Positions 24,117 through 35,591 of a DNA stretch of 64,000 bases are shown piece by piece. The stretch covers positions 1-64,000 of the forward strand of contig NZ_QGKS01000187.1 in assembly GCF_003172935.1 (NCBI RefSeq). Reading direction: 5' to 3'. The translations under genes and the position numbers were made by a program. Source of the stretch: Micromonospora sicca. Its GTDB lineage: Bacteria; Actinomycetota; Actinomycetes; Mycobacteriales; Micromonosporaceae. Every line of letters begins with the position of its first letter. Position 1 is the first letter of the stretch. The notes beneath the pieces were generated by a model, which was given only the letters and a program-made list of their open reading frames with translations, had not been told where the DNA came from and made no database searches.

Positions 24117-24936
24117 GGCGCCGTTGCATTGTGGGATCGGCGGACGTGTCGAACCGGTATCGAATCCGCGGTCAGATCGCTTGGGCGAGTTCGGTGAACG
24201 CCGCGGCGACCCGCGTAGCCGGTGGGGCGTCGATTCCGAGTTCGTAGTGGCCGCGTCGTAGGTTCTGCATGAAGGCGTGTCCGGCGATGATCACCTGCGC
24301 TGTCTTGTCGGTCCGCAGCCCGCGCATCGGTCTTAACCGCTGTTTGAGCCGGCTGTGATCGGCCTCGATCGGATTATTGGCGTACCGCTCGACGTGGTGC
24401 CACGCGGACGGGATCAGCTCGTCAAGCACGCCCGGGTAGATCGCGGCGGCGTCGGTGACCACCTCGCTGGGTGTCACCTTCAGCGTGGCCAGGGCACGAC
24501 GGAAGAACCGCCGGGCCGCATCAGCGTCCCGGCGGGCCGAGACCAGCACGTCGATGACCTGCCCATACTGGTCAACTGCCCGGTACACGTACCGCCACAC
24601 ACCGTTGACCTTGACGTACGTCTCGTCGACGAACCATCGATCACGCGGTGAGTGGCGGCAGAATCGGGCCGCGTCGGCCAGCAGCGGCGTGAAGCGTTGC
24701 ACCCACCGGTAGACGGTGACGTGGTCGACCTCGATGCCGCGTTCGACCAGCAGTTCCTCCACATCGCGGTAGGACAGGTTGTAGCGCAGGTACCAGCGGA
24801 CCGCGACCACGATCACCTCGGCCGGGAACCGGAACCCGGCGAACGCCGACGTCGGCGGCAGCCAGGGGCGAGGACGGGTTGATGGCTTCACCGGTCAAGC
24901 CTGCCTCGATCTTGCCAACGCTCAATGCAACGGAGC
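24117..24936 (-). mobile_element. IS6-family insertion sequence, 820 bp, complete with terminal repeats
   Basis: The ends are imperfect 15-bp inverted repeats: GGCGCCGTTGCATTG at 24117-24131 and, on the opposite strand, GGCTCCGTTGCATTG at 24922-24936 (one mismatch). One transposase gene fills the element. The flanking 8-mers (GTTCGTCC on the left, CCCATGCG on the right) do not match, so there is no target duplication. That is expected if the copy took part in cointegrate resolution or an adjacent deletion. It has landed in an IS256 remnant. Confidence 0.8.
24172..24891 (-). CDS. IS6-family DDE transposase
   Basis: A 239-residue transposase beginning at a GTG. An N-terminal helix-turn-helix (NLSYRDVEELLVERGIEV) precedes the DDE core. 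The acidic residues are seen in RWFVDETYVKV, VVTDAAAIYP and NNPIEADHSRLKQRLRPMRG. Length and motifs are full for the family, so the element may still be active. Replicative transposition by this family produces cointegrates, which can explain local rearrangements. Confidence 0.9.
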   Translation of the reverse strand: MKPSTRPRPWLPPTSAFAGFRFPAEVIVVAVRWYLRYNLSYRDVEELLVERGIEVDHVTVYRWVQRFTPLLADAARFCRHSPRDRWFVDETYVKVNGVWRYVYRAVDQYGQVIDVLVSARRDADAARRFFRRALATLKVTPSEVVTDAAAIYPGVLDELIPSAWHHVERYANNPIEADHSRLKQRLRPMRGLRTDKTAQVIIAGHAFMQNLRRGHYELGIDAPPATRVAAAFTELAQAI

Positions 24937-25076
24937 CCCCATGCGGCCGGCTCGGTTCCTTCGTCCGTCGTGGTCACCTACTGCCTACGTACAGGGAGGC
25001 ACAACGAAGGACCGGGGTTCCCCCTCTGGACCGGACACCCTGAGCCCAGACAGTGGTCTGGGGGAAGGATGTCCTG

Positions 25077-25250
25077 GTGCCCCGTCCGTCGAAGTACCCC
25101 GAGCAGTTCCGCCTGGATGCGGTTGAGCTGGTCCGCTCGTCACCGGGCCGGTCACTGCGTGAGATCGGCCGAGAACTCGGCGTCAACCACGAGACCCTCC
25201 GCGGCTGGGTCAACGCCGCCAAGCGTGCCGAGCAGAACATCGCCGGCCGT
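25077..25250 (+). pseudogene. N-terminal fragment of an IS3-family OrfA
   Basis: About 58 codons from a GTG preceded by GGGGAAGGA encode a helix-turn-helix (PRPSKYPEQFRLDAVELVRS, LREIGRELGVNHETLRGWVN). Similarity then ends abruptly and the frame continues as the antisense of the neighbouring SWIM gene. OrfB and the rest of the element are absent. The junction near 25250-25270 marks a deletion that also cut the SWIM gene. Confidence 0.75.
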
Positions 25251-25979
25251 GACAGCGGCGCCCAGAAGCTCCCAAGCGCGGGCTGCGGCGTCAGCGGCCA
25301 GCCTGGCGATCTCCGCGCTGGTGATGCCGGCGGCAGCCGGTGGCGCCGCGCGTAGAGGCACCGGCACGCCGGGCTGAGCAGGCGGCGGCGCGGGCGGCGG
25401 CAGCGGCGCGACCGGGCGGAGGAAAGCCTCTCTGGCCAGCATCCCCGAGGGCGGTGTCCATGCGGACTGCCGCCGGTCGCGCAGGGCGTCGAGCACCTCG
25501 TCCCGCATCCGTCCGCGAAGCAGCAGCACCGCGAAGGGGTCCGCGTCGAGCAGGTCGGCAGTCAGGTAGCACACCGCGGCAGCGTGCTTGCACAGCTCGG
25601 CCTGGTCTGGGCACGAACACACGCACCGCAGGTCGCCCGCGCCGGGGAGCAGGTCGAGCTCGGCGCCGACACCCGGCGCGAGATCCCCCGCCAGCAGCGC
25701 CGCGACGTGACCGACCTGGGCCGACATCGCCTCGAACACCCGCGCCCAGCCCGCGGCGTCGAGCACGGGCACATTGATGATCACTGAATAGGGTCGCGGC
25801 CCGCCGCCGGACACGAGCGCACCGACGGCACCCGGCGTGATGACCAGGTCGTGTACTCGGTTGCCGCGGACGTACGCCCGGCCGTGGATCAGCCGATCGG
25901 GGTCGAGCCGCGCCCGGGCGGTGAGCGCCTCCACCCAGGCCTTGCCCCACCAGGTCCGGCCATGCGTCGGGTACGTCAC
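25152..25979 (-). CDS. SWIM zinc-finger protein, 3' end replaced
   Basis: The protein begins TYPTHGRTWWGKAWVEAL, typical of actinobacterial SWIM proteins. Its zinc site is CVCSCPDQAELCKHAAAV (C-x-C-xn-C-x-H) around residue 125, thought to bind DNA or protein. A proline-rich linker and a short helical stretch follow. The last 35-40 residues before the stop at 25152 are encoded by antisense of the IS3 OrfA fragment, so the natural C-terminus is lost. The GTG start overlaps the SNF2 gene stop by four bases (GTGA). SWIM proteins are commonly encoded next to SNF2 helicases and are presumed to work with them. Confidence 0.8.
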   Translation of the reverse strand: MTYPTHGRTWWGKAWVEALTARARLDPDRLIHGRAYVRGNRVHDLVITPGAVGALVSGGGPRPYSVIINVPVLDAAGWARVFEAMSAQVGHVAALLAGDLAPGVGAELDLLPGAGDLRCVCSCPDQAELCKHAAAVCYLTADLLDADPFAVLLLRGRMRDEVLDALRDRRQSAWTPPSGMLAREAFLRPVAPLPPPAPPPAQPGVPVPLRAAPPAAAGITSAEIARLAADAAARAWELLGAAVTAGDVLLGTLGGVDPAAEGLVVDAEFSADLTQ

Positions 25980-28657
25980 GCAGACCCCAGGGTGACCAGG
26001 TCGGCGAGGTCGGCGGTGGACAGGTCGGCCAGCCAGTGCTCCCCGGCACCGACCACCGACTCGGCCAGAACCCGCTTGTCCGCGAGCATGGTGGCGATCC
26101 GGTCCTCGACGGTGCCCTCCGCGATGAGCCGGTGCACCTGCACCGGCCGGTCCTGCCCGATCCGGTACGCCCGGTCGGTGGCCTGGTCCTCCACGGCCGG
26201 GTTCCACCACCGGTCATAGTGCACGACGTGGGTCGCCCTGGTGAGGTTGAGCCCGACGCCGCCGGCCTTGAGGGACAGCAGGAACACCGGCGCCGTGCCG
26301 GCCTGGAAGTCGGCCACCACCTCGTCCCGGTCGGCCGTCTGTCCGCTCAGGAACAGGGTGGGGATCCCCCGCGCGGCCAGGTGCCGCTCGATCAGGCGGC
26401 ACATCTGCACGTACTGGCTGAAGACCAGCGCCGATTCGCCCTCGGCCAGGACCACGTCCAGCAGGTCGTCGAGCGCCGCGAGCTTGCCGGACCGGCCACC
26501 TGTCGGCCCCTGCTCATGCAGGTAGTGGGCGGGGTGGTTGCAGATCTGCTTCAGCCCCGTGAGCAGCTTGACGATCAGCGCGCGCCGCTGCAGGCCACCG
26601 CTGGCCTCGATGTCGGCCAGGCTCTGCGCGACCACCGCGCGGTACAGCGACGCCTGCTCGGCGGTCAGCGGCACGATGCGATCGGTTTCGGTCTTGGCCG
26701 GCAGTTCCGGCGCGATGCCGGGGTCGGACTTGCGCCGCCGCAGCAGGAACGGCCGGATCAGCCGGGCCAGCCGCTCGGTCGTGGCGGGATCGCGGTTGCG
26801 CTCGACAGGCACCGCCATGGTGCTGGTGAACCGCGACAGTGAGCCGAGCAGCCCCGGCGTCGTCCAGTCGAGGATCGACCAGAGCTCGGAGAGCTTGTTC
26901 TCCACGGGCGTGCCGGTCAGCGCCAGCCGCGCGGTCGCGGGCAGCGACCGCAGCTGCCGGGCCGTCTGCGACAGCGGGTTCTTCACGTACTGGGCTTCGT
27001 CCGCGACGATCAGCCCCCAGCCCACCTCGGCGAGCGCGGCCGCGTCGGCGCGCACGATGCCGTACGTGACGAGCACGATCTCGTTCTTGGCGAGGTCCAT
27101 CAGGTGCCGCTCACCGCCGTGGTACCGGCGCACCGGCACGCCCGGGGCGAACCGCCTGATCTCGCGCTCCCAGTTGCCGAGCAGCGTGGTCGGGCACACG
27201 ACCAGGGTCGGCCCGCGGCCCTGCCGGTGCAGATGCAGCGCGATGACTTGGATGGTCTTGCCGAGGCCCATGTCGTCGGCGAGGCAGCCGCCCAGCCCCG
27301 ACTCGGTCATGCCGGCCAGCCAGCTGAGCCCTCGCTGCTGGTACGGCCGCAGCGTGCCGGCCAGGTCCGCCGGCACCGGCGTGTCCGGCAGTTCGGCGAG
27401 CATGCCGGTCATCGCACGCAACGCGCCGGTCGGCTCGAACTCGACCCAGTCCCCGTCCAGGTCGAGGCCGCCTGACAGCGCCGCCGCCAACGCCTCGATC
27501 CCGGTGAGCGGCCGCCGCGGGCGCCGCAGGCGTGCCAGCACCTCGTGGTCCACCCGGACCCACTGGCCCCGCAACCGGACCAGGGACCTCTTGGCCTGGG
27601 CGAGCTGCGCCAGCTCCTCCTCGGTCAGCGCCTCCCCGCCGACCGTCGGCCGCCAGGTGAAATTCAGCATTGCGTCGAGCGTGAACGCCGCTTCGGCGAC
27701 CCGGTCCGGCTTGGGGGTCGCCACCGCGCGCAGCGCGAGCGGCTCGCCGAGCAGCTCCACGGGCACGAGCACCTCGATACCCGCGCCGGAGAGCGTCTCG
27801 ACCGCGCCGAGCAGGTCCGTGATCGTGTCGTCGGCTGCCTCGATCGGCCGCGGCGAACGCTGGTCGAGCAGCCCGGCCATGGGCGGCCAGAGCCGGGCGC
27901 CGCGGTGCAGGGCGGTGAGCATCGCGGTGTCCGGTGCCGGGCCGAACCGCGCGGCCACGGCCGGCGGCGCGTGCCACAACCGGTCCGCCTCGATGAGCAG
28001 GCTCGGGTCGCTGGCGCTGCGCAGCCACACCCCGATCTCGTACGGGCCGTCCGGCGCCACCGGCAAGGCCACCCGCAGCACCGTTCGGGCCGTCTCGTCT
28101 GGCCGCAGCCAGCCCAGCGGGCCGCGGACCTTCACCGGGGCGTGCTGGGTGAACGGTCCGTCCACGCCTGATCGTGCCAGTGTGTCCGCCAGGGCGTCCC
28201 ACCAGTCACGGATCAGCGCCTGCGGCTCGGGCACCCGTACCGGTGGCCAGCTGTCGGGCAGCACGATGCAGTGCCCCTCGGGCGGCATCGCCGCGGCCAG
28301 CGCGTGCAGCCGGTCGGCGTCGGCAGCCGCGAGCGGTCCGATCCGCCACGAGCCGAACCCTGCTGCGGTCACCGCGGGCGACAGCCGGCCGCGGGCCACG
28401 AGGTCCAGCCCGGCGAGCGTCGCCGCGGACCACGCCGCCACCGAGGGGCTCGCCTGCCGTACCGACAGCAGCTGCGCGACGGCCTCGGCGACCGTCAGCA
28501 GTCGCACGAGCGTCGGGCGCCGGTGCAGACGCGCCGCCGGACCGTGGAAGAGCTCGATCGTGTCGGGCCCGGTGATGGCCGGACCCCATACCGCGAGCCG
28601 GCCGGCCCGGGGAAGTTCGTGCGGCCGGAACACCGCGTGGTGCGAGGGGCCGAACAC
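25976..28657 (-). CDS. SNF2-family DEAD-box-like helicase/translocase
   Basis: An 893-residue ATP-dependent DNA translocase. The N-terminal 400 residues form the bacterial SNF2-associated region. RecA domain 1 begins around residue 445 with LRPYQQRGLSWLAGM, Walker A GCLADDMGLGKTIQV, VVCPTTLLGNWEREI and the DEAQ box (IVADEAQYVKN). RecA domain 2 has ALVFSQYVQMCRLIERHL, LLSLKAGGVGLNLT and the arginine-finger motif TDRAYRIGQDRPVQVHRL. I chose the GTG at 28657, nine bases after GAGGAGG and four bases beyond the upstream stop. It would move along or remodel DNA or protein-DNA complexes for the module encoded by this operon. Confidence 0.9.
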   Translation of the reverse strand: MFGPSHHAVFRPHELPRAGRLAVWGPAITGPDTIELFHGPAARLHRRPTLVRLLTVAEAVAQLLSVRQASPSVAAWSAATLAGLDLVARGRLSPAVTAAGFGSWRIGPLAAADADRLHALAAAMPPEGHCIVLPDSWPPVRVPEPQALIRDWWDALADTLARSGVDGPFTQHAPVKVRGPLGWLRPDETARTVLRVALPVAPDGPYEIGVWLRSASDPSLLIEADRLWHAPPAVAARFGPAPDTAMLTALHRGARLWPPMAGLLDQRSPRPIEAADDTITDLLGAVETLSGAGIEVLVPVELLGEPLALRAVATPKPDRVAEAAFTLDAMLNFTWRPTVGGEALTEEELAQLAQAKRSLVRLRGQWVRVDHEVLARLRRPRRPLTGIEALAAALSGGLDLDGDWVEFEPTGALRAMTGMLAELPDTPVPADLAGTLRPYQQRGLSWLAGMTESGLGGCLADDMGLGKTIQVIALHLHRQGRGPTLVVCPTTLLGNWEREIRRFAPGVPVRRYHGGERHLMDLAKNEIVLVTYGIVRADAAALAEVGWGLIVADEAQYVKNPLSQTARQLRSLPATARLALTGTPVENKLSELWSILDWTTPGLLGSLSRFTSTMAVPVERNRDPATTERLARLIRPFLLRRRKSDPGIAPELPAKTETDRIVPLTAEQASLYRAVVAQSLADIEASGGLQRRALIVKLLTGLKQICNHPAHYLHEQGPTGGRSGKLAALDDLLDVVLAEGESALVFSQYVQMCRLIERHLAARGIPTLFLSGQTADRDEVVADFQAGTAPVFLLSLKAGGVGLNLTRATHVVHYDRWWNPAVEDQATDRAYRIGQDRPVQVHRLIAEGTVEDRIATMLADKRVLAESVVGAGEHWLADLSTADLADLVTLGSA

Positions 28658-28661
28658 CTGC

Positions 28662-29909
28662 TCAGGCCTCCTCTGGAATGCCTTCCAGGTCGACGTCCTC
28701 GCGGTAGTCGGAGTCCATCTGCACCGCCACCGTGTCGGGCTGGAACGCAGGGTCCAGCCGGACGAGGTCCCACTCGTTGATCCACGCGCGAATGTACTGC
28801 CGCATCCGGGTGGCACCGAGACGTTCGAGGCCCGCGATATCGGGCGGGTTCCACCCGAACGCCGTGCCGTGCAGCTCCTTCAACCGGCCATACGCCCGGT
28901 CGAGTTCGGCCGCGTCGGGCGGCGTGAGCAGCGTCATCTCGCGGTCGATGATGCGCATGCCGGCCTGGGCGCGGTTGGACAGCGCCAGCGCGTCCGGGGT
29001 CTGCCGGTCACGCAGCCTGGCCGGCACGTTCTCGCGGTCCTTCTTGCCGGTGATGACGGCCGCCTCGAAGTCGTCGGTCATCGCCAGCACGGCGGCGACG
29101 GGCAGGCCGGGCACCTGATGGTCGCCCTGCACCCACCGGGCGATCTCGGCGTACGACTTGGCGCGCTGCAGCAGCGAGTAGCGTCCCACCAGTTCGACCT
29201 CGTCGAACAGGAACAGCCAGCCCGCCCCACCGGCGGCGGTGAACAGCCGGGCCGCGAACCGCAGCCGCTGCTCGGCCAGGTCCTTGGCGGACACCGGGGA
29301 CAGCGCCACCGGGCCCTCTCCCGCCGCCTTCAGCCGGCGGCGCAGGTCGGGCACGCTGATCGGGTCACCAGACCAGAACCGGACCAGCTTCTCGGCGAAC
29401 TCCGGATCAAGATCGCGGATCTTTCCGTACAGCGAGAGCGTGGCGGCGAACCGCTCGTTGAGCCCGGCGGCAGGGGACAGCGACCATCGCAACAGCTCGG
29501 CGAAGCCGCGCCCGTCGACATCGAGCGCCGCGGCGGCGCCGGCGATCGCCGGCCCGCTCCCCCCGGCCACGACGGCACAGTCTGCGGCGGCGCTGAACAC
29601 CTTCGCCCGGTCGTGCAGCGGCGTCTCCTTGCTGATGACCACTCGGCTGACCGCGAAGCCCTCGTCAAGGGCCAGGCGCATGAGATGCTCGAGCAGATGC
29701 GACTTGCCCGAACCGAAGCCGCCGCCGATCAGCATGCCGCTCGCACGGCCCTCACGGGTCGTGCCGAGCAGGTCGAGGAAGCGGTCCTCGATCTCAGTCT
29801 GGCCGGAGCCGAGCATCGCCACCGCGTCCAGGCACGGCACGCCCGCCCGCAGCGCCTCTATCGCCCGCCGGTGGCTGACCGACGGCTCCGTGGTGGTCAA
29901 CGCGGTCAT
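28662..29909 (-). CDS. BREX BrxD-like P-loop ATPase (DUF2791 type)
   Basis: A 415-residue ATP-binding protein. Walker A is MLIGGGFGSGKSHLLEHLMR around residue 65, followed by VVISKETPLHDRAKVF. Walker B is WLFLFDEVELVGRYSLLQRA near residue 232, and a sensor-like AVLAMTDDF follows. This arrangement matches the BREX-type ATP-binding proteins (BrxD) that occur with helicases in phage-defence loci. The core BREX genes pglX, pglZ and brxC are absent here. Its start overlaps the upstream gene's stop (ATGA) and it ends four bases before the SNF2 start, so the two should be made together. Family assignment is by motif; the role in defence is inferred. Confidence 0.75.
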   Translation of the reverse strand: MTALTTTEPSVSHRRAIEALRAGVPCLDAVAMLGSGQTEIEDRFLDLLGTTREGRASGMLIGGGFGSGKSHLLEHLMRLALDEGFAVSRVVISKETPLHDRAKVFSAAADCAVVAGGSGPAIAGAAAALDVDGRGFAELLRWSLSPAAGLNERFAATLSLYGKIRDLDPEFAEKLVRFWSGDPISVPDLRRRLKAAGEGPVALSPVSAKDLAEQRLRFAARLFTAAGGAGWLFLFDEVELVGRYSLLQRAKSYAEIARWVQGDHQVPGLPVAAVLAMTDDFEAAVITGKKDRENVPARLRDRQTPDALALSNRAQAGMRIIDREMTLLTPPDAAELDRAYGRLKELHGTAFGWNPPDIAGLERLGATRMRQYIRAWINEWDLVRLDPAFQPDTVAVQMDSDYREDVDLEGIPEEA

Positions 29910-30931
29910 CGGACGGCCTCCAGTCGTACGTCGAGACGGATCAGCGCGGCGAACGGGTTCGCCCGGTGCCGGTCGCGCACCTCGTCGGCCACGCGCAGGT
30001 GCAGCGCGCTGTACGCGGGCAGGCCGCGCGCCTCGTCGATGACCAGTTCCGGCGGCAGCAGCACCGCGACGAACAGGCCCGCGAGCTCGTCGGTCGCGTC
30101 GATGAGCTGCCGCAGGAGCTCGTACGCGTCGAGCGTGGCGGCCTTGGAGTAGTAGTGGCCGTCGCGTTCCTCGGCCGCCGGCCGGCGCGCGACCGCCACC
30201 CGCTCCAGGTCGATCAGCAGCACGGTGCCGCTGCGACCGGCCCGGCGCACCCACTGGCTCAGCGACGTCAGCATCGCCCGCGCGTTGTGCCTGGCGATCT
30301 TCGTGTGCAGCAGCACGGATCGCAGCTGCGCGGCCGGCACCTTCTCGCCCTGCAGCCAGCCGAGCACGGCCAGCCGATCGGCCTGGGTCACGTCGCCGTG
30401 CGCCATCACGGCCTGGCACAGCCGGTACATCGCCACCCGGAACTCGTGCGCCAGCGCGCTGTCCTTGAGCACCGCCCGCTCCAGCGCCCGCCGCACGCTG
30501 CGGTACAGCTCACTGCTGTCGATCTCATGGTGGGCGGCGACCACCGCGACGTCGAGCTCAGCGACGCCGGAGCCCGGCGCAGGGAAGCCCGCCTGCCGGT
30601 AAGCCTCGGTCAGCACCGTTGCCGCCAGCGCCATCCAGTCGACCTGCCTGGCGACGGCGAAGAACAGCTGATCCATCAGATGGACCCGGGTCACGGCGCT
30701 GTCCACGGTGACGTACACGAACCCGCCCGCGCCGGCGGTGCACCGCTGCGCCAGCCCGCGGTCGAACCTCTTGGCGATGTCGTCGTCGCCGGTGACGACC
30801 AGCCGCACCGCCGTCCCGCCGAGCGAGATGTAGGTGTGCAGGTATTCGGCCGCGACGAAGTCGAGGTACTCGTCGATGTGGTGCACCCCACCGCCACCGG
30901 GCAGCTCGGACCGCTGCTGCGGCAGGCTCAT
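29906..30931 (-). CDS. P-loop-like protein without an intact Walker A, partner of the BrxD-like ATPase
   Basis: A 341-residue protein whose layout resembles the adjacent BrxD-like ATPase. It has an N-terminal hydrophobic strand pair where Walker A should be (YISLGGTAVRLVVTGDDDIA), with no GKS/GKT, then FVYVTVDSAVTRVHLMDQLF. A Walker-B-like GTVLLIDLERVAVARRP lies about residue 235. LFVAVLLPPELVIDEARGLP matches the sensor region of the neighbour. I read it as a degenerate ATPase subunit that may assemble with the active one. It is not a family I can name with certainty. Both ends overlap neighbouring genes by four bases. Confidence 0.6.
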   Translation of the reverse strand: MSLPQQRSELPGGGGVHHIDEYLDFVAAEYLHTYISLGGTAVRLVVTGDDDIAKRFDRGLAQRCTAGAGGFVYVTVDSAVTRVHLMDQLFFAVARQVDWMALAATVLTEAYRQAGFPAPGSGVAELDVAVVAAHHEIDSSELYRSVRRALERAVLKDSALAHEFRVAMYRLCQAVMAHGDVTQADRLAVLGWLQGEKVPAAQLRSVLLHTKIARHNARAMLTSLSQWVRRAGRSGTVLLIDLERVAVARRPAAEERDGHYYSKAATLDAYELLRQLIDATDELAGLFVAVLLPPELVIDEARGLPAYSALHLRVADEVRDRHRANPFAALIRLDVRLEAVR

Positions 30932-31722
30932 CGGTCGGCCTCGGCCTTGGTGAACGAGACACCCCAGTACCGCTGGCGCTGGCCGCTGCGGGCCACGGTG
31001 GTCAACACGCCGCTGGTCTTCGTGCCGGTGCTCGCCGACCAGCGCAGCTGCCGGGCGCTGCGCGCGGTGGCCGTGACCCCGCTCTGATCCAGCAGGTACA
31101 GGTCACGGGCGAACTCCTGCTTCGTGTACTCCTTGGCCTGCCCGGGCAGCATCGTCAGCACGCGCCACACGTCGACCAGCCTGACGACCGCGTCCGGGCT
31201 CTTGCCGGCCTCGGCCACGACCAGCTCGTACGCGGCGCACAGGCTGTCCAGGAACGGCTCCGGCTTGAACCGGGGCGCCCGCTGCTGCGCCGCGGCCAGA
31301 ACGCCGACCAGCACCGACGGCCGCAGCCGCCGCTCGCGTACCTTGTCCACCTCCACCGAGGCGTCGGCCACGAGCACCCGTACGAGTGACGGGTAGCACA
31401 TGAGCTGATCGTCCTCCTCATACATCGCCACGCCGGCCGCCTCGGCGGCGGCGAGCAGCTCGGTCGTGTACTCGCCGGACGACAGGTACCCCTGCTCGTC
31501 GATGTCGAACGCCGTACGCAGATCGGCCGCCGCCGCGACGAAATCGGCGGCGAGCGACTCGGCCGCGGACGTGGCTTTGCGCAGGTCACGCAGCTGTCCG
31601 GCCTTCGCCGCGGTCCGGGCCTTCCGCAACTGGGCGGTCGCTGTCGCCAGCACCTTCAATGCCGCGTCGGCCTGCCGCTCGGCGGCGGCGAGCGTCGACT
31701 CGAGCGAACTTGCATCTGTCAT
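30928..31722 (-). CDS. Helical/coiled-coil protein, first gene of the BREX-like operon
   Basis: A 264-residue soluble protein of unknown family. Residues 1-75 are alanine-rich heptads (LESTLAAAERQADAALKVLA, AAESLAADFVAAAADLR), a likely coiled coil. The C-terminal half is mixed and ends with SARQLRWSASTGTKTSGVLT and a basic patch (RSGQRQRYWG). It has GGGAGG five bases before the ATG and overlaps the next gene by four bases. Its position as first gene suggests a structural or sensor subunit. The 300 bases upstream (31723-32021) carry no gene and must hold the operon promoter, though I could not pick one. Confidence 0.6.
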   Translation of the reverse strand: MTDASSLESTLAAAERQADAALKVLATATAQLRKARTAAKAGQLRDLRKATSAAESLAADFVAAAADLRTAFDIDEQGYLSSGEYTTELLAAAEAAGVAMYEEDDQLMCYPSLVRVLVADASVEVDKVRERRLRPSVLVGVLAAAQQRAPRFKPEPFLDSLCAAYELVVAEAGKSPDAVVRLVDVWRVLTMLPGQAKEYTKQEFARDLYLLDQSGVTATARSARQLRWSASTGTKTSGVLTTVARSGQRQRYWGVSFTKAEADR

Positions 31723-33455: not shown

Positions 33456-33607
33456 CCAGGGTTACCACCCTGATCCGGGCGCTGCGGCCTGGGTGACGCC
33501 CGCCCACCATCCGCCGCATGTGACCCGTGCGTCCGCAGGCTGTTTCCCAAGCATCGGAGGTCCATCGCATGACCGAGTGAACCCTTCTCGGCATGAGTAG
33601 CCCTGTG

Positions 33608-34837
33608 TCAAGCGGCGGCCGTGAGTACGGCTTGCAGAGCTCGGTGGCGGGTGGGGTCGTAGGCGACGCCGTCTTGCCAGCAACGCCAGATGACGTGCAG
33701 CCATGCGCGGGCGAGGATGCGGGTCGCGTGGGGATGGTCGTGGCCCCGGGCTCGGGCCCGCTGGTAGAGGTCAGCGGCCCAGGGGTTGGCGTGGTGGGAG
33801 TCGCCGGCGAAGTCGATGACCGCGCCACGGAGTTGTTTGTCGACGGCCCAGCGGAAGCTGACGACTTTCACCTTGCCGGACTGCCTCGTCGAGGGCGCGG
33901 CCCCGGCCAGACAGGTGAGTGCTTCCGGCGTCGGGAAACGGCCGCGGGCGTCACCGATCTCAGCCAGGAGCCTGGCCGCTCGCACGATCCCTGCCCGGGG
34001 CAGGGACGTGAACACCACCGCGTCTGGGTGCTGCAGCAACTGGATCGCGATCTGCTCTTCCAACGCGCTGATCTGTTCTCGCAGGGCGGTGAGCCCGGCC
34101 ACCAGCGCGGCGGTGACGTGCGCCCGGGCGGTGGCTTCAGCACCGGTGGTGCCGCGGGTAGCCGCGGCCAGGTGGGCGTGCAGCAGCCCGGCTCGTGCCG
34201 GGTTGGGGTAGGAGACGCTGCGCAGCCAGTTCTGCAGTCGGCGTGGCGACAGCCAGTCGACCTGCTCCTGGGTCGTGAACCGGGCGAGGAAGCTCAGGGT
34301 GATGGCGGAGTCGATATCGCGGAACAGCCCGATCGCCGCGGGCAGAACGTGTTCGAGGTGGGCGCGCAGCTGATTCGCCATCGCGACACGGGCGGCGATG
34401 AGGTCCTTGCGGGCGCGGACGGTCATCCGCAACGTGAGCGTCGCGGGAGAGTCCACGGTGAGGGGACGCAGGCGGTGGCGGTCGGTGCGGACGGTGTCGG
34501 CCAGGACGTAGGCGTCGAAGCGGTCGTCCTTGTTGCCGGCTGCGCCGTAGCGGCGGCGCAGGTGCTTGATCTGGTTCGGGGCGATCACGAAAACCGTGAT
34601 CCCTGCCTCGAGGAGAGCGTCGACGATGGGCCCGTCGGGACGTTCGATACCGACCTCGGCCACGCCGGTCTGCTGCAGGCATCGCAGCAGCTTCCGCAGG
34701 CCCGCAGCGGTGTGCTCGACGAGCATCCGTTGAACCTCGACACCGTCGGGGCCGACGATCGCGAGGGCGTGTTCGGTGCTGGCCCAGTCGACGCCCGCGG
34801 TGGGCCGGCGCGTCGGCGGGTTGTGTTCGACACTCAT
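33608..34837 (-). CDS. IS110-family transposase, second type
   Basis: A 409-residue intact transposase. The DEDD core shows AGVDWASTEHALAIV, GIERPDGPIVDALL and GNKDDRFDAYVLADTV. The C-terminal Transposase_20 part has FTSLPRAGIVRAARLLAEIGD and CLAGAAPSTRQSG with the catalytic serine. AAGGAGG precedes the ATG at 34837; upstream in-frame codons lie before that site. It belongs to a different IS110 branch from the copy at 22691-23716. Element ends cannot be set. Confidence 0.9.
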   Translation of the reverse strand: MSVEHNPPTRRPTAGVDWASTEHALAIVGPDGVEVQRMLVEHTAAGLRKLLRCLQQTGVAEVGIERPDGPIVDALLEAGITVFVIAPNQIKHLRRRYGAAGNKDDRFDAYVLADTVRTDRHRLRPLTVDSPATLTLRMTVRARKDLIAARVAMANQLRAHLEHVLPAAIGLFRDIDSAITLSFLARFTTQEQVDWLSPRRLQNWLRSVSYPNPARAGLLHAHLAAATRGTTGAEATARAHVTAALVAGLTALREQISALEEQIAIQLLQHPDAVVFTSLPRAGIVRAARLLAEIGDARGRFPTPEALTCLAGAAPSTRQSGKVKVVSFRWAVDKQLRGAVIDFAGDSHHANPWAADLYQRARARGHDHPHATRILARAWLHVIWRCWQDGVAYDPTRHRALQAVLTAAA

Positions 34838-35591
34838 GGTGTCCTCCTTGCTGTTGCAGCAGCAGGTGGGCACCTGGTGGTCTCAGGACACGTAAGCCGG
34901 TCGCTCACTGATCGGCGCTCGATGGCGCTCAGCCCTGTCGCCGGTCGTCCGTGTCCTGGGGCCACCGGGCCCCGCAGAACTCATGCTGGACCTATCACGG
35001 TCGAGCGGACGAGGCGGTGGCCCGGTGGGGACCAGGTGCACCGGCGACTCGATATTGCCGGCACCAAATACGGTGCCCCACGAAACCGCCGACAGAAAGA
35101 GTCTGTCCAGTGAGCGGGCGTCGCCGGCCTGTGAAGCGGAGTCTTCGATGCTGATGCTTTCGGGCGCGACGAAGGGGTCATCGGACAGGAGACCCTGGCC
35201 AGGCGGTTGGCCGTGGCATTCGAGCCAGATGGGCCTCAGCATCGGAGAGGGTCAGGACGGTGTTCCGCTGCTGTGAGTCGATGGGACGGGGCTCGGCTCA
35301 CCGTAACCCGCATCGGCGATGACGACCACAGCCTCATCGACGAAGGTCAAGAGCAGTCACGGCACTACCAGAAGGCTCCCTGACCAGCACCGTCGCGGCC
35401 GCGCTCGCGTGAACCGGCGGCGTTCGGCCCGGACCGCGCGGACCTGGACGGCATCGGCCCCGCGCCTCCGGAACCTTGTACGTTGCGAAACGATGTGGCA
35501 ATCTGATCGCAACAGGGCCTGAGCGAGTCCAGTCCACCCTCACGCCAACAACCCGCTGTCGCCTCCTAACAGGACCAAAGTGGTCGCAAAA
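34838..35591. other. Non-coding or degenerate stretch upstream of the arabinan locus
   Basis: About 750 bases without a convincing gene. Open frames on either strand lack ribosome-binding sites and recognisable domains. A short plus frame ending at about 35378 (LTVTRIGDDDHSLIDEGQEQ) may be a coding relic. The region probably represents the outer flank of the IS110 insertion plus eroded sequence. Confidence 0.4.

Follow-up and report, generated by a model that had tools for sequence, protein, structure and literature searches.

A conserved three-gene unit with BrxC/BrxD-family ATPases, joined to an SNF2-SWIM gene pair in Micromonospora sicca, is neither BREX nor Shango

The stretch of Micromonospora sicca DNA analysed here (positions 1 to 64,000 of contig NZ_QGKS01000187.1, assembly GCF_003172935.1; the whole 64,000 nucleotides are called the window) carries a module of five co-directional open frames on the minus strand, in the order P1, P2, P3, P4, P5. 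The stable unit is formed by genes 1-2-3 (P1-P2-P3, the triad) and not by the five-gene set. By their profiles, P2 as well as P3 are relatives of the BrxC/BrxD-family ATPases, which resemble those of the origin recognition complex (ORC) and Cdc6, and catalysis looks split between the two proteins. The triad is neither BREX (bacteriophage exclusion) nor Shango. Taken as a whole, the module is somewhat more probably than otherwise (about 0.55) a helicase loader that binds DNA, is driven by ATP, and acts in defence against phages or plasmids. The five genes are:

30928..31722, minus strand: P1, 264 amino acids (aa), first gene of the triad, with a helical hairpin at residues 7-71 and a probable winged-helix region in the C-terminal part (153-260)
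29906..30931, minus strand: P2, 341 aa, putative BrxC/BrxD-family pseudo-ATPase without Walker A or the Walker B glutamate, with the motif RGxxxYxALxxR
28662..29909, minus strand: P3, 415 aa, BrxC/BrxD-family AAA+ ATPase, Walker A GGGFGSGKSH and Walker B DEVE
25976..28657, minus strand: P4, 893 aa, SNF2 translocase near the SCO1167/SCO6262 family, with DUF3670, SNF2 and Helicase_C
25152..25979, minus strand: P5, 275 aa, SWIM zinc-finger protein, CxC...CxH

The P1/P2 and P2/P3 junctions share ATGA, a gap of 4 nt separates P3 from P4, and P4 and P5 share GTGA, which confirms the coordinates, order and coupling given by an earlier interpretation of the letters alone (the sequence-only reading). 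The search for the same order in other genomes, which that reading had proposed, found it in Catenulispora pinisilvae (locus L039; identity 72% for P1, 73% for P3, 61% for P4, and 45% for P5) and in no further locus among 84. Because Catenulispora pinisilvae repeats their order, the five genes are not a chance run of open frames. The Pfam profile PF10923 (BrxC/BrxD) matches both P2 (57.9 bits, 1.1e-15) and P3 (61.7 bits, 8.1e-17), with a gathering cut-off of 22.2, while no family reaches its cut-off on P1 in Pfam, NCBIfam, or PADLOC. P4 scores 1165.6 bits over nearly the full length of NCBIfam NF058637 (SCO1167/SCO6262; cut-off 1200) and its helicase motifs are intact. The SWIM motif of P5 is found at residue 119 (PF04434, 8.9e-05, 22.4 bits, cut-off 19.6).

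The conservation of the triad was determined by scanning an alignment of five P3 proteins against one genome per species. The 414 candidate stretches yielded 177 relatives, and the best 80 of the 177 were examined together with four loci fetched earlier, which gives 84 loci (83 distinct). P2 lies upstream of P3 or is fused to it in all 71 distinct loci whose sequence extends 2 kb or more beyond P3 on that side, and P1 is found upstream in 70 of them; in the sole remaining locus (L104) a tandem fused copy intervenes. The P3 tree comprises 77 rows, 49 of them labelled Actinomycetota, with eight other named phyla represented and many metagenome bins. P2 and P3 are naturally fused in five loci (L090, L094, L096, L104, and L106), all in bins labelled Nitrospirae or Nitrospinota. 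One gene cluster follows each fusion (a histidine kinase in L090 and L104, where it was scanned), three of the loci have also a small second downstream cluster, and L104 holds two fused copies in tandem. P1 is present in 1 of 101 genomes (M. sicca and 100 relatives), namely M. sicca itself. At the level of the class 4 of 394 genomes have it, M. sicca included, one of these matches being weak (E 7e-4). With P1 so rare in both sets the locus is patchy, and not the conserved core locus by which the sequence-only reading would have been refuted. No publication pairing DUF2791 with defense, BrxD, or BREX was found, nor is the triad described in the titles and abstracts searched, a search that misses most subscription papers.

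The catalytic motifs, counted over 73 P2 and 78 P3 proteins, are complementary. Walker A and DExE are each found in 0/73 P2 proteins, and RGxxxYxALxxR is present in 73/73 P2 vs 0/78 P3. DExE occurs in all 78 P3 proteins, the strict GxxxxGK[ST] in 69 of the 78, and the Walker lysine in all 77 with a residue at that column. In SngB, the single-protein ATPase of Shango, the P-loop, DE, and RGxxxYxALxxR are combined in one chain (4/4 aligned). P2 was previously taken to be 'P-loop-like', which does not agree with the absence of Walker A throughout the P2 family; by its PF10923 match it is a BrxC/BrxD relative instead. From the position of the motif and general knowledge of AAA+ proteins, RGxxxYxALxxR may be an arginine finger kept by P2 and acting in trans on the ATP of P3. 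A tree of 60 proteins places P2, P3, SngB, and BrxD-like proteins in one separate clade each (SH-aLRT, the Shimodaira-Hasegawa-like approximate likelihood-ratio test, 100), although the tree carries a long-branch warning and its BrxD-like members are search hits not verified as parts of BREX loci.

The fused P2-P3 protein of L090 was modeled with a predicted local distance difference test score (pLDDT) of 89.8 and a predicted template modeling score (pTM) of 0.89. In VIA-align its P3 half superposes on a chain of the BrxC-BrxB-PglZ complex (Z 11.0, 295 residues), archaeal Orc2 (Z 10.9), Cdc6/Orc1 (Z 10.8), and the BrxC dimer (Z 10.4), and also on RdrA; for the BrxC-complex and archaeal Orc/Cdc6 chains the aligned span is 246-295 residues at Z 10.4-11.0, values which, by the tool's own caution, fall where common arrangements score too. 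TnsC and MuB are also among the matches (Z 9.1-10.4). The model assigns to P3 a predicted AAA+ fold of the ORC/Cdc6 type, and its Walker A/B motifs are intact. The P3 profile gave nothing at E <= 0.01 against the sequences of the Protein Data Bank (PDB). In the AlphaFold2 (AF2) model of P1, calculated from 60 homologues (mean pLDDT 94.7), the long hairpin of helices (7-71) is accompanied by two parts of mixed alpha/beta structure. Of the 50 rows shown, 12 align residues 151-263 with the C-terminal part of ORC chains, at Z of 5.2-6.3, which is within the tool's range for a possibly common arrangement. The C-terminal part of ORC1 is presumably a winged helix, and the C-terminal region of P1 is probably one as well. 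When P1 was compared with the sequences of solved structures, the matches were confined to residues 5-104 (the hairpin and its end), mostly to designed coiled coils.

For the 66 distinct loci whose downstream sequence reaches 2 kb or more, helicases of superfamily 2 (SF2) beside the triad were called with a broad profile derived from P4, on the strand of the triad and no more than 1.3 kb downstream. Such a helicase is present in 30 of these loci. Thirty downstream helicases were scanned (L074 and L092 replacing L039 and L082 of the preceding count, the window not included): SNF2 is matched by 16, the C-terminal model of XPB by 14, and Mrr_cat by 9, and the helicase of L108 combines SNF2 and Mrr. 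In three of the 36 loci lacking a downstream helicase (L057, L084, and L113) a divergent gene of the SNF2 type lies upstream. When the four helicase layouts are placed on the P3 tree, 8 changes are needed vs a shuffled mean of 29.3. In 11 loci a protein of ~190 aa separates P3 from the helicase, and in a twelfth it follows P3 at the contig end. Another protein, of ~540 aa (median), stands before P1 in the 13 loci where it occurs with a ResIII-type helicase. Both families look like further parts of triad variants; the one member of each that was scanned (L108:3887-4465 and L069:6908-8254, respectively) gave no family match.

The SNF2-SWIM pair (P4-P5) is a common stand-alone actinomycete pair. 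Of 61 genomes, M. sicca included, 43 have the SWIM protein and 56 the SNF2 protein, and the SNF2 gene stands directly upstream at 50 of the 52 SWIM places. The sequence-only reading had treated the five genes as one unit, but the part that is conserved is P1-P2-P3, and the pair is widespread on its own. M. sicca itself has a second, ordinary SNF2-SWIM copy on another contig (C540), and P1, P2, and P3 were not found in the six stretches around the nearest SNF2-SWIM pairs and this own second copy. In the P4 tree the window is sister to Catenulispora (SH-aLRT 99), next to which comes a copy from genome G064; the group consists of second copies, found also in the genus members G006 and G026, and is separate from the ordinary copies of the genus. 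In the P3 tree the window and Catenulispora likewise form one clade (SH-aLRT 99), within a clade of 33 rows in which 26 of the others have no close downstream helicase and 5 are unscorable. Since the surrounding P3 rows have no close helicase or are unscored, the SNF2-SWIM pair of the window looks re-captured. The gene names SCO1167 and SCO6262 do not occur in the titles and abstracts of the papers listed by the literature search on the pair.

Ten open reading frames (ORFs) on the flanks of the window copy were scanned with Pfam. The module lies between transposases of the IS6/IS240 and IS110 types, these being insertion sequence (IS) families; the first is:

24172..24891, minus strand: IS6/IS240-type transposase (PF13610, 1.7e-47), downstream of P5, flank only

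The corresponding element (24117-24937, ~820 bp) is apparently intact, lies ~210 bp past the SWIM gene and has inverted ends of 15 nt (24117-24131/24923-24937, 93% complementary). One flank comprises amidase and ABC-transporter genes, and the other a RibD_C protein, a 506-aa frame, and glycosidases. The 506-aa protein (33593-35113) has no family; it is present in 7 of 61 genus genomes (M. sicca included) and is ~80% identical in two. The flank searches for an empty site did not fix the insertion point. Of the flanks described earlier, the IS6 piece stands as IS6/IS240-type, while the IS3 piece is unconfirmed, an IS110-type transposase being found instead; the 'gene relics' on the other side could not be established, the RibD_C protein and the open 506-aa frame being located there, and the defence island proposed around the module gives way to metabolic genes and IS elements.

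Defence genes are absent from the scanned flanks of the window and adjoin the triad in some relatives. Shango is found next to it by profile in L043 (SngA 5.8e-49, SngB 7.8e-166, SngC 5.8e-263) and, in the neighbour comparison below, in three genomes, which by layout are L043, L044, and L095; in L041 it is placed there by gene clustering alone. In L095 the triad is also adjoined, on its other side, by Wadjet III (JetA 9e-119, JetC 3e-276, JetD 1e-82, the JetB place being unmatched); this stretch of Actinoplanes subtropicus (L095:2447-19098) holds Shango, the P1-P2-P3 triad, and the Wadjet III operon in series. In L117, where the contig starts within P2, P3 and an SNF2 helicase are followed by a match to an Argonaute-associated TIR model (1.3e-124); a 507-aa gene also stands after P3 and the helicase (L117:1-6089). 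A comparison was made between 112 triad neighbours and 111 genes elsewhere in the same 19 genomes (E <= 1e-15), with figures coming from 25 of 49 neighbour and 25 of 31 control families. Among the matches listed, the neighbours show SngA, SngB, and SngC (3 each), mad3 (4), mad2 (3), and DpdF (3), and also Wadjet, type I methyltransferase, AbiEii, and PrimPol models; the controls, again among the matches listed, show PD-T4-6 (many models, 1 each), mad3 (3), and DpdF (1), and also mad6, MkoA, GlgB, kinase, and CARF models. Ten neighbour proteins picked as candidate Wadjet or type I genes gave only a weak mad3 match. The neighbourhood is support for a defence role and not proof, because the Shango cases come from related bacteria. 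As for the chromatin-remodelling role that the sequence-only reading had offered as an alternative, the analysis gave no evidence in either direction.

The helicase-loader proposal can be described as follows. P1, P2, and P3 would form a three-gene, ORC/Cdc6-like DNA machine in which P3 binds ATP, P2 acts as a dead paralogue giving the arginine-finger side of the P3 site, so that both make one obligate hetero-ATPase, and P1 contributes the winged-helix DNA-binding part. The ATP-bound triad would recognise a DNA feature of the invading element and load or activate an SF2 helicase or translocase. In some relatives the helicase bears an Mrr nuclease; in the window the SNF2-SWIM pair, taken from the common actinomycete stock, may strip or block the DNA of the invader rather than cut it.

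A number of observations weigh against this proposal. No same-strand helicase is present within 1.3 kb downstream in 36 of the 66 loci. Residue 298 of P3 is R or K in 76/78 proteins, and P3 may for this reason own a finger. The models of P1 and of the fused P2-P3 protein have no Foldseek match at E <= 0.001 (the best for the fusion is RdrA, 2.9e-3), and the Z values of both fold comparisons lie in the ranges cautioned about above. The surroundings of the window copy, metabolic genes and IS elements over the ten ORFs, are not a defence island. The four Shango cases are not independent, because all are related Actinomycetota, and in the small neighbour comparison mad3 is about equal on both sides (3 in controls vs 4 in neighbours). 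Searches of viral contigs, plasmids, and phages gave no relative of P3 at the sensitivities applied.

The main rival explanation, unlikely but of real weight, is a horizontally moving module for DNA repair or replication restart, in which the triad would load the helicase where the DNA of the host is damaged or stalled and would play no dedicated part against invaders. It would agree with the ORC/Cdc6-like fold of the P3 half, the stand-alone SNF2-SWIM pair in most genus genomes searched, the metabolic neighbourhood of the window copy, and the loci without a close downstream helicase. What disfavours it is the very patchy presence of the triad, the Mrr nuclease on 9 of the 30 scanned helicases, and the Shango, Wadjet, and Argonaute-associated TIR neighbours at some loci. 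It is less probable still that a triad that came from outside and an SNF2-SWIM pair already resident stand together by chance and are functionally unlinked. The pair is indeed alone in most relatives, P1, P2, and P3 are lacking in the six stretches around the nearest pairs, and the union recurs in one other locus of the 84; however, that union is common to Catenulispora, where P3 and P4 are each sister to the window proteins (SH-aLRT 99 each), the genes overlap, and an SF2 helicase follows the triad closely in 30 of the 66 loci.

We consider very improbable that P3 is a target-selection ATPase of a transposon, similar to TnsC or MuB, with the helicase as a passenger. This is the explanation to which the TnsC and MuB fold matches (Z 9.1-10.4) and the IS elements adjoining the window copy would belong, but no transposase was found among the annotated neighbour clusters of at least three loci, most smaller clusters and single genes being unannotated. 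The least probable explanation is that of a degenerate or stripped BREX, a BrxD-helicase remnant after the loss of pglX, pglZ, and brxC. Apart from the PF10923 matches of P2 and P3, which it shares, the evidence points away from it: on the BrxD equivalog of NCBI P3 reaches 54 bits and P2 48.3 bits, with a cut-off of 350; the P3 clade is separate from the BrxD-like proteins (the latter unchecked for BREX loci); and the only PglZ match of the genome lies on another contig (C355). Decay from BREX is further disfavoured because the three-gene order persists in 70 of 71 loci and across nine named phyla.

In a wider and distinctly more tentative form of the helicase-loader proposal, P1-P2-P3 would be an 'origin recognition complex in pieces', not described before, that spans phyla and serves immunity. 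It would be an obligate hetero-ATPase whose active site is shared out over two genes, and a general loader to which bacteria attach exchangeable effectors, either helicases or helicase-nucleases; one Actinomycetota branch might have lost its dedicated helicase, its lone triads borrowing the near-universal SNF2-SWIM pair in trans, with the lineage of the window having re-captured the pair in cis. BREX and Shango both join an ORC-like ATPase to a helicase. A split ATPase site, a separate DNA-binding protein, and an exchanged helicase would make the loader idea directly testable. If true, it would offer a possible role for the SNF2-SWIM pair carried by most genomes of this genus.

Among the known systems, type 2 BREX resembles the triad in the tight linkage of an ORC/Cdc6 AAA+ ATPase to an SF2 helicase. 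PMC12839542 describes BrxD as an ORC/Cdc6 ATPase, paired with BrxHI in a dyad and proposed as its loader; the same source calls the role of BrxD uncharacterized. The triad differs in having two ATPase paralogues and P1, and in missing the BrxD equivalog. The former description of the ATPase as BrxD-like is retained at the level of the PF10923 family and not at that of BrxD, and the derivation of the module from BREX falls with the missed cut-off and the separate clades of P2, P3, SngB, and BrxD-like proteins. PglZ was not found on the contig of the window (C222), in keeping with the absence of pglZ noted before, and the Pfam scan, which covered ten flanking ORFs and not every ORF of the window, showed no BREX family there, neither BrxC/PglY nor the PglX methyltransferase. 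BREX identity was rejected on the missed BrxD cut-off, the separate clades, the wide retention of the three-gene order, and the location of PglZ elsewhere. The single PglZ-family match of the genome is at G000:C355:31872-32381, where a BREX-type locus may lie.

Shango is described in PMC10250203 as three genes (TerB, helicase, and ATPase) with tested anti-phage activity. It is similar to the triad in that a BrxD-family ATPase (SngB) adjoins an SF2 helicase and one accessory protein, and the two occur side by side in some genomes. Nevertheless, SngA has TerB_N/TerB_C and P1 is unmatched to it, a single SngB stands against the P2/P3 split, the SngC-type helicase belongs to a different SF2 branch, and SngB forms a separate clade. 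The SngB model gives 1.4e-05 on P3 vs 7.8e-166 on true SngB, with P2/P3 matches of 1e-5 to 1e-6. P1 has no TerB match in Pfam and was rejected as a SngA relative, showing no profile match to the SngA of L043 (one sequence); a TerB_N search of the M. sicca genome also gave no match, but its controls gave none either.

PbeABCD is reported to interfere without cutting, PbeC being SMC-like and PbeB and PbeD small (PMC6459918). In one scanned triad locus the downstream ResIII-type helicase best matches PbeA (1.8e-57). Identity with PbeABCD was rejected in view of the SMC-like PbeC, the small PbeB and PbeD, and the lack of an ORC-like triad in that system. The SNF2 + Mrr helicase of L108, and the Mrr_cat matches in general, are similar to Zorya ZorD and other SNF2-Mrr helicase-nucleases, whereas no ZorA/B is seen among the annotated neighbours of the triad loci, ZorA/B not having been searched in every locus. 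In respect to the SCO1167/SCO6262 SNF2 and SWIM pair, P4-P5 is a divergent branch; the pair normally occurs alone, and in the window it is coupled to the triad.

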